The translations under genes and the position numbers were made by a program. This document shows positions 5,102 to 18,678 of a stretch of 64,000 bases of DNA, piece after piece. Where the stretch lies: NCBI RefSeq assembly GCF_901686465.1, contig NZ_LR594487.1, positions 1,857,650 through 1,921,649 on the forward strand. The letters run 5' to 3'. The notes beneath the pieces were generated by a model, which saw only the letters and a program-made list of their open reading frames with translations, was not told where the DNA came from and did not search any database. The DNA is from Halorubrum sp. DM2 (lineage in GTDB: Archaea > Halobacteriota > Halobacteria > Halobacteriales > Haloferacaceae). Each line of letters begins with the position of its first letter. The stretch's first letter is position 1.

Positions 5102-6736
5102 TTACCGGGACACCGTAGCGTCGTCCAGCTGGATCTCCGACGAGATCGGGTGTGCGCTGAAGCCCTCCACGGCGCTACGGACTCCGTAGGAGTTGTTCAG
5201 GTTGTACGCCGGGATGTGGACGCGCTCCTCGAGCAGCGTCGTCGTCGCCTCGATGTAGAGCTGCCGGCGCTCCTCGCGGTCGGCGGACTCGCGGGCCTGC
5301 GTCAGCTTCTCGGAGGCCTCGTCGTACCCGTGGAAGGTCCCGTTGGTGACGCCGTCCGTCTCCTGGCTCAGCAGGTTGTACACGAACGCGTCCGGGTCCG
5401 GGCTGCCCGACCAGCCGAGCGTGTACATGTTGTACTCGTCCGCGCTGTTCGGCCCGTCGTCGCTCTGGTACGCCTCGGTGAACGTCCCCCAGTCGAGTCG
5501 CTGGACCTCGACGTTGTCGAAGCCGGCGTTCTGGAGGCCGTCGCCGATGCTGATACCGATCTGTTCGCGCTTGTCGTCCGGCGGAACGATGATCCGCCAG
5601 TCGTAGTCCATCGAAACGCCGGCCTCGTCGAACAGCGCCTGCGCCTCTTCGAGGTCCTGTCCGTGGGAGATCTCGGACCACTCGTCGACCGGGAAGTTCC
5701 ACTCCTCGGAGATAGACGACGGGTACGGGCTGTACTGTCGCACACCGGACGGCTCGACGAAGTTCTCGACCGCCTGATCCATCGAGAAGCAGTAGTCGAC
5801 CGCCTCGCGGACGAGGGGGTCGCTCGTCGGACCGTTGGCGCAGTTGAACGCGAGGTAGAAGTATCCCACACCCGGTTCCTCGGTGATACTGGCGTTCTGG
5901 TTGCTCTCGACCGTCTCGTACAGCTGGGGCGGAATGGTCTCGATGACGTCGACGTTCCCCGTCTCCAACTCGGTGACGCGGGTCGTCTGCTCCTCGATGG
6001 GGTCGAACTCGATCTGGCCGATCTCCGGGAGGTTGTCGCTGTCCCAGTAGTCGTCCCACCGCTCGACGGTCGCGTAGTCCTCAGGCTCCCACTCGACGAG
6101 CTGGAAGGGACCGGAGCCGACCGGGTCCTGATTGTACGCCTCGGTGTCCTCCTGACGCACGGAGGCGTTGACGACGCTGCGCACCATGGCGATCGTGAAC
6201 GCGCCGTAAGGGTACGAGAGATCGAACTGAGCCGTGTACTCGTCGATGGCCTCCCCGCTGTCGATCATGTTGACCTCGGGGGCGTTCTCGGTCTGCTCCT
6301 CGACGGGAGCGAGCATCGTGTGGACGACGTCTTCCGCGGTGACGGGGTCGCCGTTCTGGAACTCGGCGTCCTCGCGCAGCGGGACGATAAAGCGGGTGCC
6401 GTCGCGCTCGACCGTCGGCATCTCCGCGGCGATCTTCGGCTCGATGCCGACGCCCTCGCCGTACTCGTAGATACCGTCGAAGAGCTGTCCGGTGATCTGG
6501 GCGGACGGGACGTCGTTCATGACGATCGGGTCCATGTCGAGCGGCCCCTTCGCCTGCGAGAAGTACAGGGTCGGACCGCTGCTGCCGCCGTCGCCGCCGT
6601 CGCCGCCGTCGCCGCCGTCGCCGCCGTCGCCGCCGTCGCCGCCGCCGGTACACCCGGCGAGCAGGAGGGAGGTACCGGCTGCCCCGCCGGCGAGGACCTT
6701 CCGTCGCGAAATGCGTTGTGTGTGTTGTCGACGCAT
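5102..6736 (-). CDS. Peptide/nickel-type ABC transporter substrate-binding lipoprotein (SBP family 5)
   Basis: Extracellular substrate receptor of the adjacent importer, 544 residues. The N-terminus has a Tat-like SRRKVL motif and a lipobox ending LAGC with Cys29 as the predicted lipidated residue. A Gly-Gly-Asp repeat linker (nt about 6586-6650) tethers the domain to the membrane. The body shows the family order: lobe I start (GPTLYFSQAKG), the QNGDPVTAEDV segment, DPVGSGPF, then the C-terminal half. This makes it a useful internal control for the permuted paralogue at 15914-17800. First gene of the operon, with its own strong TATA box. Confidence 0.94.
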   Translation of the reverse strand: MRRQHTQRISRRKVLAGGAAGTSLLLAGCTGGGDGGDGGDGGDGGDGGDGGSSGPTLYFSQAKGPLDMDPIVMNDVPSAQITGQLFDGIYEYGEGVGIEPKIAAEMPTVERDGTRFIVPLREDAEFQNGDPVTAEDVVHTMLAPVEEQTENAPEVNMIDSGEAIDEYTAQFDLSYPYGAFTIAMVRSVVNASVRQEDTEAYNQDPVGSGPFQLVEWEPEDYATVERWDDYWDSDNLPEIGQIEFDPIEEQTTRVTELETGNVDVIETIPPQLYETVESNQNASITEEPGVGYFYLAFNCANGPTSDPLVREAVDYCFSMDQAVENFVEPSGVRQYSPYPSSISEEWNFPVDEWSEISHGQDLEEAQALFDEAGVSMDYDWRIIVPPDDKREQIGISIGDGLQNAGFDNVEVQRLDWGTFTEAYQSDDGPNSADEYNMYTLGWSGSPDPDAFVYNLLSQETDGVTNGTFHGYDEASEKLTQARESADREERRQLYIEATTTLLEERVHIPAYNLNNSYGVRSAVEGFSAHPISSEIQLDDATVSR

Positions 6737-14629: not shown

Positions 14630-15823
14630 ATGAAGCGGGCTCGCGTCGTCGTCGCCCTCCTCGCCGTCGTCGGGGTCGGTCTCGTTCTCTCCGGGGTCTT
14701 CGCCGGAGCGAGCGAGGAGCCGGCCGTCGGCGACGTCGCCGACGACCGCCTCATCGCCGTCGACGGAGAGTACCGGCTCTGGCCGTACACGAGTCGGAGC
14801 CGGAGCGTCGAGGGGCGAACGCTCGCGATCAACGTGGTGTTCCACGCGGACGCGGCGACGACGCGGGCCGCCATCGAGGGCGATCCGACCGCGAACTGGG
14901 AGGAGACGGAGCCGGACGAGGCGGCTTCGACGGCCGACGACGACGATCAAGTCCGAGAGTTCGTCGCCCGCGACTGGCGGGACGCCCACAGCTCGCTCCG
15001 CTACTCGTACGTCGAGGGACCGAGCGGCGGCGCGTGGCTCACCGAGACGTTCGAACTCCACGACGGGGCGTACCTCGGGGTCCGCGACCACCTCCGCGCC
15101 TACGAGTCCCCGGACGGCAGTTACACCGCGATACAGGCCCACGAGGAGTACTACGACTGGTTCCGGCTCCGTCACACCGTGCCCGACATCGACGCGCCCG
15201 CGCTCCGGCTCGAATCCGAGTTCGTCGAGTCGGACCGCGCGACCGACGTCCGCCGCGAGTACCGCGGTATCGACGGCGGGCGCAGCGACGGCTGGCTCTC
15301 CGTGATCGAACTGGCGGCCGCGGCGGCGCTCGCCGGGGCGCTGCTCGGGCGGCGGACCCGCGAGACGGCGACCGACCTCGTCCGGCGGCTCCGCACCGAT
15401 GTCGGCCGACACGCGACGGCGGCGACGCTGGGACTGGCGCTCGGCGCGGTCCTCGTCGGCGTCCGCGTCGCGGGCGTGACGCTGGAGGCGGCGTTACCGG
15501 GCGCGTCGCCGAAGGCCATCGCCGCGCCGCTGTACCTCGTCCTCGTGGTCGGGTTGCCCGCGCTGGTCGTCTGGCGCGCCCCGGGAACCGATCCGGCGGC
15601 CGCCGCGCTGGCCGTCGTCGTCGGTCTCGGCGGCGGCTTCCTCGCCGACTTCGCCGCGCTCGGGGTGGCGGTCCCGCCGGACCTCATCGTCCACCGGGTG
15701 GCGCTCCTCGCCGCGCTCGGCGTCGTCGCCATCGGACGGGCGGCCGCCGACCGGTCGGTCGTCGTCGCGGGGCTGGCGGCGTGGGCCGTCGGACTGGCGC
15801 TGCCGCTGATGAGCGTGATCTGA
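14630..15823 (+). CDS. Membrane protein with N-terminal signal anchor and C-terminal helix bundle
   Basis: 397 residues. A signal-anchor helix (MKRARVVVALLAVVGVGLVL) is followed by an external domain of about 190 residues containing DRLIAVDGEYRLWPYTSRS and a Trp/Tyr-rich segment, then six or so C-terminal transmembrane helices from about residue 225. The ATG at 14630 puts the Lys/Arg pair directly before the first helix. Function unknown. It lies 90 bp upstream of the permuted binding-protein gene on the same strand, though no functional link is shown. Confidence 0.75.
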   Translation: MKRARVVVALLAVVGVGLVLSGVFAGASEEPAVGDVADDRLIAVDGEYRLWPYTSRSRSVEGRTLAINVVFHADAATTRAAIEGDPTANWEETEPDEAASTADDDDQVREFVARDWRDAHSSLRYSYVEGPSGGAWLTETFELHDGAYLGVRDHLRAYESPDGSYTAIQAHEEYYDWFRLRHTVPDIDAPALRLESEFVESDRATDVRREYRGIDGGRSDGWLSVIELAAAAALAGALLGRRTRETATDLVRRLRTDVGRHATAATLGLALGAVLVGVRVAGVTLEAALPGASPKAIAAPLYLVLVVGLPALVVWRAPGTDPAAAALAVVVGLGGGFLADFAALGVAVPPDLIVHRVALLAALGVVAIGRAAADRSVVVAGLAAWAVGLALPLMSVI

Positions 15824-15913: not shown

Positions 15914-17800
15914 ATGCCCCGACCGATCAGTCGACGCGCGGCGCTTGCCGGACTCGGCCTCGCGGCCGCCAGCGCCGGCTGTCTCGGTCGCACGGAGAAC
16001 ATCGCGGGACGCGACCCCCACTCGCAGCTGACCCTCGAAATTAACACCACGCCGGCGGACGACGACCCCAACGGGATCCGCATCGCGAGACAGCTCGAAG
16101 AGCACCTGACCGCGGTCGGCGTCGACGTCCGACTTAACACCGTCGGCCAGACGGACCTCTGGCGGAAGGTGCTCATCAACCAGAACTTCGACCTTTACGT
16201 CGGGCAGTTCGTGGAGACGGAGCCGTTCGACGCGGACGCGCTGTACGGGCTGACCCACTCGAAGTTCATCGCCGAGTCCGGCTGGCAGAACCCGTACGGT
16301 CTCACGGAGATCGCGGTCGACGACGCGCTGGAGCGACAGCGCCGCGTCTCCGGGGACGAACGGACCGACGCTGTCGGGGCGCTTCAGGAGACGCTGTGTG
16401 AACTCCAGCCCTTCTCGGTCGTCGCGTTTCCCGACGCGCTCACCGCCGTCCGGGAGAATCGGTTCGAGGGGTGGACGGAGGACCGCCAGCCGCTCTCCGT
16501 CACCGGTCTCCTCGAACTCGACTCCGCGACCAACGGCTCGGCGGACGCCGACTCCGCGACCAACGGCTCGACGGACGCCAACGCGACGACCGAGGGCGCG
16601 GCCGATCCGGACGGCGGCACCCTCCGGCTCGTGACGACCGACGACCGCATCACGGAGAACTGGAACCCGATCGCGGCGGAGTACCGGAAGTACGGCACGT
16701 TCACCGGGCTGTTGTACGACCCGCTCGTTCGCGCGGACGACGAGTCCGTCGTCCCGTGGCTGGCGGCCGACTGGGAGCGCGTCGACGACGAGACTCTCGA
16801 CGTTTCGCTCCGCGACGCCCGCTGGCACGACGGCGAGCCGGTGACGGCGACCGACGTCGCGTTCACCTACCGGTTCCTCCGCGACACGTCGCTGGGGAGC
16901 GTCGGGACGCCGGTCCCGACCCCGCGGTTTCGCGGCCGAAGCTCCCTCGTCGGCGACGAGCGGGCCCTCGACGACGCGACGGTCCGCCTCACCGTGCCCG
17001 ATGTCAACGAGACGGTCGCCGCGCGGGCGCTTCAGGTGCCGATCCTCCCGAAACACGTCTGGTCGGAGCGGACCGACGCGGCGACGATAGCCGGCTTCGA
17101 ACTCGACTTCGAGACTACGGAGGCGGTCGTCTCGAACAACCCCGACCCCGTCGGTAGCGGTCCGCTGCGCTTCGTCGAGGCGGAGGCCGGGGAGTCGGTC
17201 GTCTTCGAACGGAACCCCGACCACTTCCTCGTCCGCCCGGCGTCGGACGGCGAGTCGGCGGATTCGGGCGAGACGACGGACCCGCGGGCGGGAGTGCCGC
17301 CCCGCTACCGCGGGAAGCCGGCGTTCGACCGGCTCCGCATCGAGGTGCTGCCGTCGGACATCTCGGCCGTGGAGTCGGTCTCCGACGGACTTGCGGACGC
17401 GACCGTCTCCAACCTCGGTCCGGCGTCGGTCCCCCTGATCGGCCGCTCGACCGATGCTCGCCTCGTGAGCGGTCGGTCAGCGGCGTTCTACCACGTCGGC
17501 TACAACGTGCGGCGGAGCCCGCTGTCGAACCCCCGCTTCCGGTCGGTCGTCGCGCGGCTGATCGACAAGTCCGCGCTCGTCGCCGACGCCTTCGACGGGT
17601 ACGCGCGGGCGGCGTCGTCCCCGCTCGCGGCGTCGCCGGCCACGGTCCCGGACTCGGTTGCGTGGGACGGCGACACCGACCCGGTCCACCCGTTCTTCGA
17701 CGACGAGGGATCGCTGGACGTCGACGCCGCCAGAGCGACGCTGCGCGACATCGGGTACCGCTTCGACGAGGAGGGTCGGCTGCTCTCGCGGGGGCAATGA
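15914..17800 (+). CDS. Circularly permuted family-5 ABC substrate-binding lipoprotein
   Basis: 628 residues. A Tat-type SRRAAL signal and lipobox with Cys23 start the protein. Residues about 35-200 then match the C-terminal third of normal SBP_5 proteins (LTLEINTTPADDDPNGIRIA, ENRFEGWTED). A low-complexity linker (about 201-234) follows. Residues 235-628 match the usual N-terminal two thirds (GGTLRLVTTDD, WHDGEPVTATDVAFTYRF, DPVGSGPLRFVE, SNPRFRSVVARLIDK), and the protein stops at LDVDAARATLRDIGYRFDEE, exactly where a normal family member would continue into the part found here at the front. No permease or ATPase is adjacent; the next gene encodes a PAP2 protein with a 4-nt overlap. The ligand is unknown. 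Confidence 0.85.
   Translation: MPRPISRRAALAGLGLAAASAGCLGRTENIAGRDPHSQLTLEINTTPADDDPNGIRIARQLEEHLTAVGVDVRLNTVGQTDLWRKVLINQNFDLYVGQFVETEPFDADALYGLTHSKFIAESGWQNPYGLTEIAVDDALERQRRVSGDERTDAVGALQETLCELQPFSVVAFPDALTAVRENRFEGWTEDRQPLSVTGLLELDSATNGSADADSATNGSTDANATTEGAADPDGGTLRLVTTDDRITENWNPIAAEYRKYGTFTGLLYDPLVRADDESVVPWLAADWERVDDETLDVSLRDARWHDGEPVTATDVAFTYRFLRDTSLGSVGTPVPTPRFRGRSSLVGDERALDDATVRLTVPDVNETVAARALQVPILPKHVWSERTDAATIAGFELDFETTEAVVSNNPDPVGSGPLRFVEAEAGESVVFERNPDHFLVRPASDGESADSGETTDPRAGVPPRYRGKPAFDRLRIEVLPSDISAVESVSDGLADATVSNLGPASVPLIGRSTDARLVSGRSAAFYHVGYNVRRSPLSNPRFRSVVARLIDKSALVADAFDGYARAASSPLAASPATVPDSVAWDGDTDPVHPFFDDEGSLDVDAARATLRDIGYRFDEEGRLLSRGQ
16521..16580 (+). repeat. 30-bp direct repeat encoding the linker of the permuted protein
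   Basis: Two near-identical 30-bp units (16521-16550 and 16551-16580) encode the repeated linker peptide DSATNGSADA/DSATNGSTDA. They differ at only a few bases, so the duplication looks recent. Confidence 0.75.
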
Positions 17801-18678
17801 CGCCGTTCCTGTCGGTTCTCACGTCGGTCGTGGCGTGGGTCGGGGCGATGCTGGCGGTCGCGAGCCTCGCGGTCGTCGGGCCCGTTCGGCTCCGCGCGGC
17901 GTGGAGCGGGATCCGCGCGCGGCTGTGGGACGCGCGCCGGGCCGGCGCGGTCCTCGTCGTGGTGCTGCTCGCTAGCGCCGTCGGCCGAAGCTCCCTACAG
18001 ACCGTCTCCGAGCTGTTCGGGCTACAGGCGACGGCGCTCATCTACGCGCTGGAGGGCGGGTTCGTCGCGTGGATTCAGGCGACGTTCGCCGGGCCCACGC
18101 TGACCACGTACTTCTCGTGGGTGTACGTGTACGGGTACGCGTTCCTGCTCGCGTTCCCGGTGATCGCGTACCTCGCGCTCCAGCGGACGGTGACGCTCAG
18201 GCGCGTCCTCGTCGCGTACGCGCTCAACTACGGCATCGGGTTGGTGCTGTACACGGCCGTGTTCGCCCACGGTCCGCGAAACGTTATGCCGGAGATGGTG
18301 ACGCCGCTGCTGTTCGCCAACCAGCCCGACGTGATGGCACTGACGAGTGAGGTGAACGTGAACTCGAACGTCTTTCCGTCACTTCACACCTCTCTCGCGG
18401 TCACTGTGGGGACGTTCGCGGTTCTGACCCGCGAGGAGTACCCGCGCTGGACGCCCCTCGGGGTCTGGCTCGCGCTGTCGGTCGTCGTCGCGACGATGTA
18501 CCTCGGTATCCACTGGCTCACCGACGTGATCGCCGGCTTCGCGCTCGCGTTCGGCTCCGTCTCGCTCGCGTACCGCCTCGTGGACCCCCGCGACGCCGCC
18601 GAGCCGAGCGATACCGCCAAGTCGAGCGGCGATGCGGACGGGGAACGCCCCGGTTCAGAGACCGGTGCGGGCGACTGA
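17797..18678 (+). CDS. PAP2-family phosphatase (membrane)
   Basis: 293-residue membrane protein with about six helices. Motif 2 is PSLHTS and motif 3 is HWLTDVIAGF, giving the catalytic histidines and aspartate of PAP2 phosphatases; the third element (motif 1, KxxxxxxRP) is not clear, as in inositolphosphotransferase-like relatives. The C-terminus is an acidic Ser/Gly-rich tail. The ATG overlaps the TGA of the permuted binding-protein gene (ATGA), so the two are co-translated. A phospholipid or isoprenyl phosphate substrate is likely from the family. Confidence 0.87.
   Translation: MTPFLSVLTSVVAWVGAMLAVASLAVVGPVRLRAAWSGIRARLWDARRAGAVLVVVLLASAVGRSSLQTVSELFGLQATALIYALEGGFVAWIQATFAGPTLTTYFSWVYVYGYAFLLAFPVIAYLALQRTVTLRRVLVAYALNYGIGLVLYTAVFAHGPRNVMPEMVTPLLFANQPDVMALTSEVNVNSNVFPSLHTSLAVTVGTFAVLTREEYPRWTPLGVWLALSVVVATMYLGIHWLTDVIAGFALAFGSVSLAYRLVDPRDAAEPSDTAKSSGDADGERPGSETGAGD

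Follow-up and report, generated by a model that had tools for sequence, protein, structure and literature searches.

A gene for a solute-binding lipoprotein in Halorubrum sp. DM2 appears to open with segments that belong at the end of its family, which raises the questions of whether this order is genuine, how often it has arisen and what a protein built in this way might do. The window is the whole stretch of DNA analysed, 64,000 nucleotides long, and the features that bear on these questions are as follows, with the evidence for each in brackets.

5102-6736, − strand: normal-order SBP_5 comparator P0003 (Dpp/Opp permease and ATPase genes adjoin, locus L162)
14630-15823, + strand: upstream membrane protein C (predicted extracytoplasmic beta domain and C-terminal membrane helices)
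15914-17800, + strand: permuted SBP_5 lipoprotein gene P0002 (ORF and translation, Pfam and own HMMs, 79 near-complete relatives)
15914-15982, + strand: Tat-type leader with lipobox MPRPISRRAALAGLGLAAASAGC and predicted lipid-modified Cys23 (sequence)
15980-16051, + strand: tether plus first strand, the 24 aa between Cys23 and where the C-part model begins (tether comparison)
16052-16477, + strand: equivalent of the C-terminal third, aa 47-188 (own C-part HMM 1-141, E 1.9e-40)
16519-16578, + strand: two tandem 30-bp repeats lengthening the linker (repeat search)
16523-16624, + strand: linker bridging what were once the C- and N-termini (AlphaFold2 pLDDT, variable in relatives)
16625-17782, + strand: equivalent of the N-terminal two thirds, aa 238-623 (own N-part HMM 2-330, E 1.5e-98; Pfam 2-279)
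17797-18678, + strand: PAP2-superfamily membrane phosphatase gene (Pfam PF14378/PF01569, 76/79 neighbourhoods)

Segment order and predicted fold of P0002

P0002 is read from an ATG start as an uninterrupted + strand frame of 628 aa, in which a Tat/lipobox leader is followed by the C-terminal third (aa 47-188), a linker and the N-terminal two thirds (aa 238-623) of a family-5 solute-binding protein (SBP). The protein matches PF00496 (SBP_bac_5) at 153.1 bits against a curated cut-off of 32.4 (E 1.4e-44), a match also present in all 52 members of set A2. A profile search of the genome placed the later part of the model first, with model positions 287-363 at 1873671-1873910 and positions 2-279 at 1874397-1875410, marking P0002 as a variant of SBP_bac_5 and not an ordinary member. 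To avoid circularity, the HMMs used to determine order were trained exclusively on 70 haloarchaeal proteins of normal order; the C-part HMM (2-133 of 134) matched aa 51-186 at E 7.4e-15, and aa 242-616 were matched by the N-part HMM (5-318 of 320) at E 2.2e-55, with the same models matching P0003 in the usual order, N-part at 56-377 and C-part at 387-526. BLASTP of P0002 against P0003 aligned the N-part alone (20% identity, E 1e-7), such that the case for permutation rests on the profiles and relatives and not on that pair. Following the leader the chain starts with SQLTLEINTT, the segment there opening with SQLTLEINTTPADDD, and it ends with ...ARATLRDIGYRFDEEGRLLSRGQ, this start and end falling in one loop as the proposed matching of the break points had it. 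P0002 is a circularly permuted SBP, in which the ancestral termini are joined and the new termini lie in a loop when compared with a normal homologue, and the sequence-only reading that had claimed this is borne out by the Pfam order, the normal-only HMMs and 79 relatives of the same order.

Searches of the family and class gave collinear full-length matches to P0002 in many genera, with nine diverse relatives aligning over their full length and breaking at the same place. A scan of GTDB genomes recovered 80 loci, of which 79 are near-complete and named; in all 79 the C-part comes first and the N-part last. Permuted relatives occur in Halorubrum, Halopenitus, Halorussus, Haladaptatus, Haloarcula, Natronomonas, Natronorubrum, Halosimplex and others. 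That an assembly error, a frame artefact or a local rearrangement mimics a permutation has a negligible likelihood: no point was found in its favour, the frame is uninterrupted in the P0002 genome, collinear matches extend across the class and the 79 same-order relatives refute it, which settles the comparison with orthologues that had been advised against a local rearrangement. At L202, L055 and L257 the permuted SBP gene is present in tandem copies, with PAP2 at each locus too.

An RR and lipobox-like motif is found in 74/79 relatives. The linker had been ascribed to a recent 30-bp duplication, and the repeat is real (copies at 16519-16548 and 16549-16578, 97% alike, with a third copy at 67%), but it lengthened the linker and did not create it, a linker of mostly 21-59 aa being present in every relative.

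AlphaFold2, run on the mature P0002 chain with 51 relatives and without templates, gave one confident single structure (mean pLDDT 89, pTM 0.87). Values of pLDDT below 50 were confined to mature residues 1-10 and, in the linker, 191-207, so that the structure prediction suggested earlier as a check returned disorder only in the lipobox tail and linker. The best 50 Foldseek matches in the PDB were mainly family-5 binding proteins (NikZ, AppA, AccA, DppA and others), the alignments being partial and limited by chain order (TMq ≤0.44 among these 50), which is what a permutant should give. With the listed PDB matches dominated by family-5 proteins a type I/cluster B fold was not indicated for P0002, and no solved permuted homologue was among the matches listed from sequence and fold searches.

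Read against the known SBP_5 fold, the segment at 16052-16477 would represent the second half of lobe II and the return to lobe I, with that at 16625-17782 ending at the lobe II loop. Both ends of the chain would then lie in a lobe II surface loop, and the flexible linker would join the ancestral N- and C-termini in lobe I. Given the observed order, the known fold and the model would make lobe I one continuous stretch of chain and split lobe II in two, with the membrane lipid anchor predicted to hold lobe II and not lobe I. The Venus-flytrap movement is probably preserved, since permuted relatives are still found in full Dpp/Opp operons.

Recurrence of permutation in family 5

A set of 105 family-5 proteins drawn from 12 haloarchaeal genomes comprised 70 of normal and 35 of permuted order, although the resulting 33% is a biased frequency because the genomes were partly chosen for junction-spanning matches. 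The P0002 genome itself encodes a second permuted SBP_5, P0004 (G000:C1:2554443-2556449; L049:7444-9453), heading a complete operon of SBP, DppB, DppC, OppD and OppF. Both orders are represented among its relatives, with normal-order proteins at 60-65% identity. One of these, L237 (G254:C8), matches at 525-706 residues 58-239 of P0004 (66% identity, reaching the last residue of L237) and at 109-520 residues 246-668 (61% identity), an almost residue-exact rotation that lacks four residues where the chain is cut. P0004 is derived separately from P0002.

At least 7 order changes were counted on the careful tree, with the starred branches forcing 5, and the 5-95% range over bootstrap trees was 7; the family-5 tree is unrooted, such that gains and reversions are not separable on it. 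In most permutants the break follows the helix that leads into the loop. In L230 (G055) and L256 (G174) it lies ahead of that helix, about 25 residues earlier, and this alone is an argument for separate events. A single permutation ancestral to all permuted family-5 proteins, scattered over the tree by long-branch artefact, would account for the shared loop in most of them, and the deep branches are indeed long with many weak forks. Such an origin is nevertheless very unlikely, as one permuted clade is rejected (AU test p=1.7e-54), at least 5 changes follow from the starred branches with a bootstrap range of 7, the cut in L230 and L256 is displaced, and normal-order relatives are 61-66% identical to P0004. 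Circular permutation is, as judged by these sequence comparisons, recurrent in the family-5 SBPs of haloarchaea, and the initial claim for P0002 was too modest.

In L183, L231 and L242, which belong to the normal-order sister clade of the P0002 branch, the loop that corresponds exactly to the permutants' break point contains inserts of 50-103 residues, which shows that changes are tolerated at this site.

Permuted SBP_5 proteins were also found on plasmids of the Alphaproteobacteria Ketogulonicigenium, Nitratireductor, Roseomonas, Microvirga and Neorhizobium (L260, L261, L264, L265 and L266). In the annotated records of Ketogulonicigenium, Nitratireductor and Roseomonas (L260, L261 and L264) they lie within ABC operons, and annotated permuted records carry the generic name 'ABC transporter substrate-binding protein'. 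On a quick tree with weak deep support the bacterial permutants group among the haloarchaeal ABC-type permutants. Two-piece matches in Rhizobium leguminosarum and Deinococcus were rejected as permutants, their order being normal. The Ketogulonicigenium and Nitratireductor proteins have plain signal sequences without a lipobox, and membrane tethering therefore cannot be the sole reason for permutation.

Gene neighbourhood and probable role

DppB or DppC adjoins 64/70 of the normal-order proteins and 20/22 of the permuted proteins outside the P0002 branch. Among the sampled members of the P0002 branch DppB/C adjoins none and 21/22 have PAP2, and no DppB/C permease gene was found within 7 kb at any of the 79 P0002-branch loci. 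The PAP2 gene lies directly downstream of the permuted SBP in 76/79 named relatives (L111, L127 and L142 being the three without it), with the SBP stop and PAP2 start overlapping by 1 or 4 bases in 63/76; for P0002 itself the PAP2 start overlaps the stop codon as ATGA. The catalytic-type residues R161, H197, H239 and D243 of PAP2 are conserved at 98-100%, and the protein falls below NCBIfam equivalog cut-offs. The tether in the P0002 branch is nearly invariant in length (23-27 aa) and roughly neutral in charge, with that of ABC-type permutants spanning 18-81 aa and being acidic.

Upstream of the permuted SBP, protein C is found in 47/79 relatives. Its AlphaFold2 model is of moderate confidence (pLDDT 74.5), and it gave no Pfam family over cut-off and no significant PDB match. 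An LssY-type identity was considered for protein C and not supported.

The absence of a Dpp-type permease nearby and the joining of the gene to that for PAP2 suggest that P0002 is most likely a lipid-anchored receptor that would bind its ligand, either a solute or a lipid-linked compound, on the outside of the cell and present it to the PAP2 membrane phosphatase or regulate that enzyme. On gene order, overlap and conservation the probable partner of the P0002 branch is PAP2 and not an ABC importer of its own, and these together with the 23-27 aa tether point to a receptor anchored at a fixed distance. As for the origin of the permutation, the most likely route is a tandem duplication in frame, after which the outer parts were lost.

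Orphan SBPs that use permeases encoded elsewhere are known generally, and the P0002 genome contains several complete Dpp/Opp operons, such that P0002 could be an orphan feeding one of these with PAP2 a mere conserved neighbour. This is the less probable reading, though not a negligible one, given that PAP2 adjoins in 76/79 relatives with start/stop overlap in 63/76, and that the tether is short and near constant, unlike that of the permease-linked relatives. The lack of a permease nearby and the near-constant anchoring distance would also suit a cleft that no longer binds a ligand and now serves a structural or sensory purpose, such as chaperoning or regulating PAP2, but this appears improbable in view of the strong Pfam match (E 1.4e-44) and the complete predicted fold. 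Taken as a whole, the best explanation, and a likely one, is that P0002 is a complete two-lobed lipid-anchored permuted SBP, most likely a receptor working with PAP2, that has arisen by duplication and loss. Evenly balanced, in our judgement, is the wider proposal that the family-5 lobe II loop is a natural permutation hot spot, reused in haloarchaea and shared with Alphaproteobacteria, and that one permuted branch has given up ABC transport and become the receptor in a pairing with the PAP2 phosphatase.

Comparison with known systems

P0002 shares with the SBP_bac_5/cluster C proteins (DppA, OppA, NikA and AppA) both Pfam parts and the predicted two-lobed fold, and has a lipoprotein export signal like that of neighbouring haloarchaeal SBPs. 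It differs from them in that its segments are rotated, permease genes do not lie alongside and the predicted lipid anchor is on the other lobe. Order-blind annotation hides permuted SBPs of this type, which serves as a warning. The partner resembles PAP2_3, undecaprenyl diphosphatase and PgpB proteins in matching PF14378 and PF01569 and in its conserved His/His/Asp residues; in the literature searched no description was found of a PAP2-superfamily member operating with a solute-binding lipoprotein, and a module of binding lipoprotein and PAP2 phosphatase across Halobacteria is suggested.

The circularly permuted SBP is already known as a kind from Treponema pallidum Tp0684 (TpMglB-2), a natural circularly permuted lipoprotein of 'type Ic/cluster Bc' that binds glucose and changes conformation, for which its authors proposed that tethering favours the permuted form (PMC4990184). 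TpMglB-2 was the only natural precedent found in the open-access literature searched, PMC2588589 being rejected as a further case as the co-occurrence of terms was incidental, and no report of natural circular permutation in family 5 was found in that literature, which omits most subscription papers; within it the family-5 case is new. P0002 and TpMglB-2 have in common natural permutation of an SBP and a lipoprotein nature, but TpMglB-2 has the type I/cluster B sugar-binding fold and another break, while here the family is 5 and the permutation is recurrent, and the tethering proposal fails to cover the lipobox-free permutants of Ketogulonicigenium and Nitratireductor. In the literature found natural SBP permutation had rested on the one type I case; family 5 offers many solved normal-order structures, P0004 with L237 as a before-and-after pair, and what are probably several separate events, with this pair and these events making the effects of chain order on folding, anchoring and permease docking directly testable.
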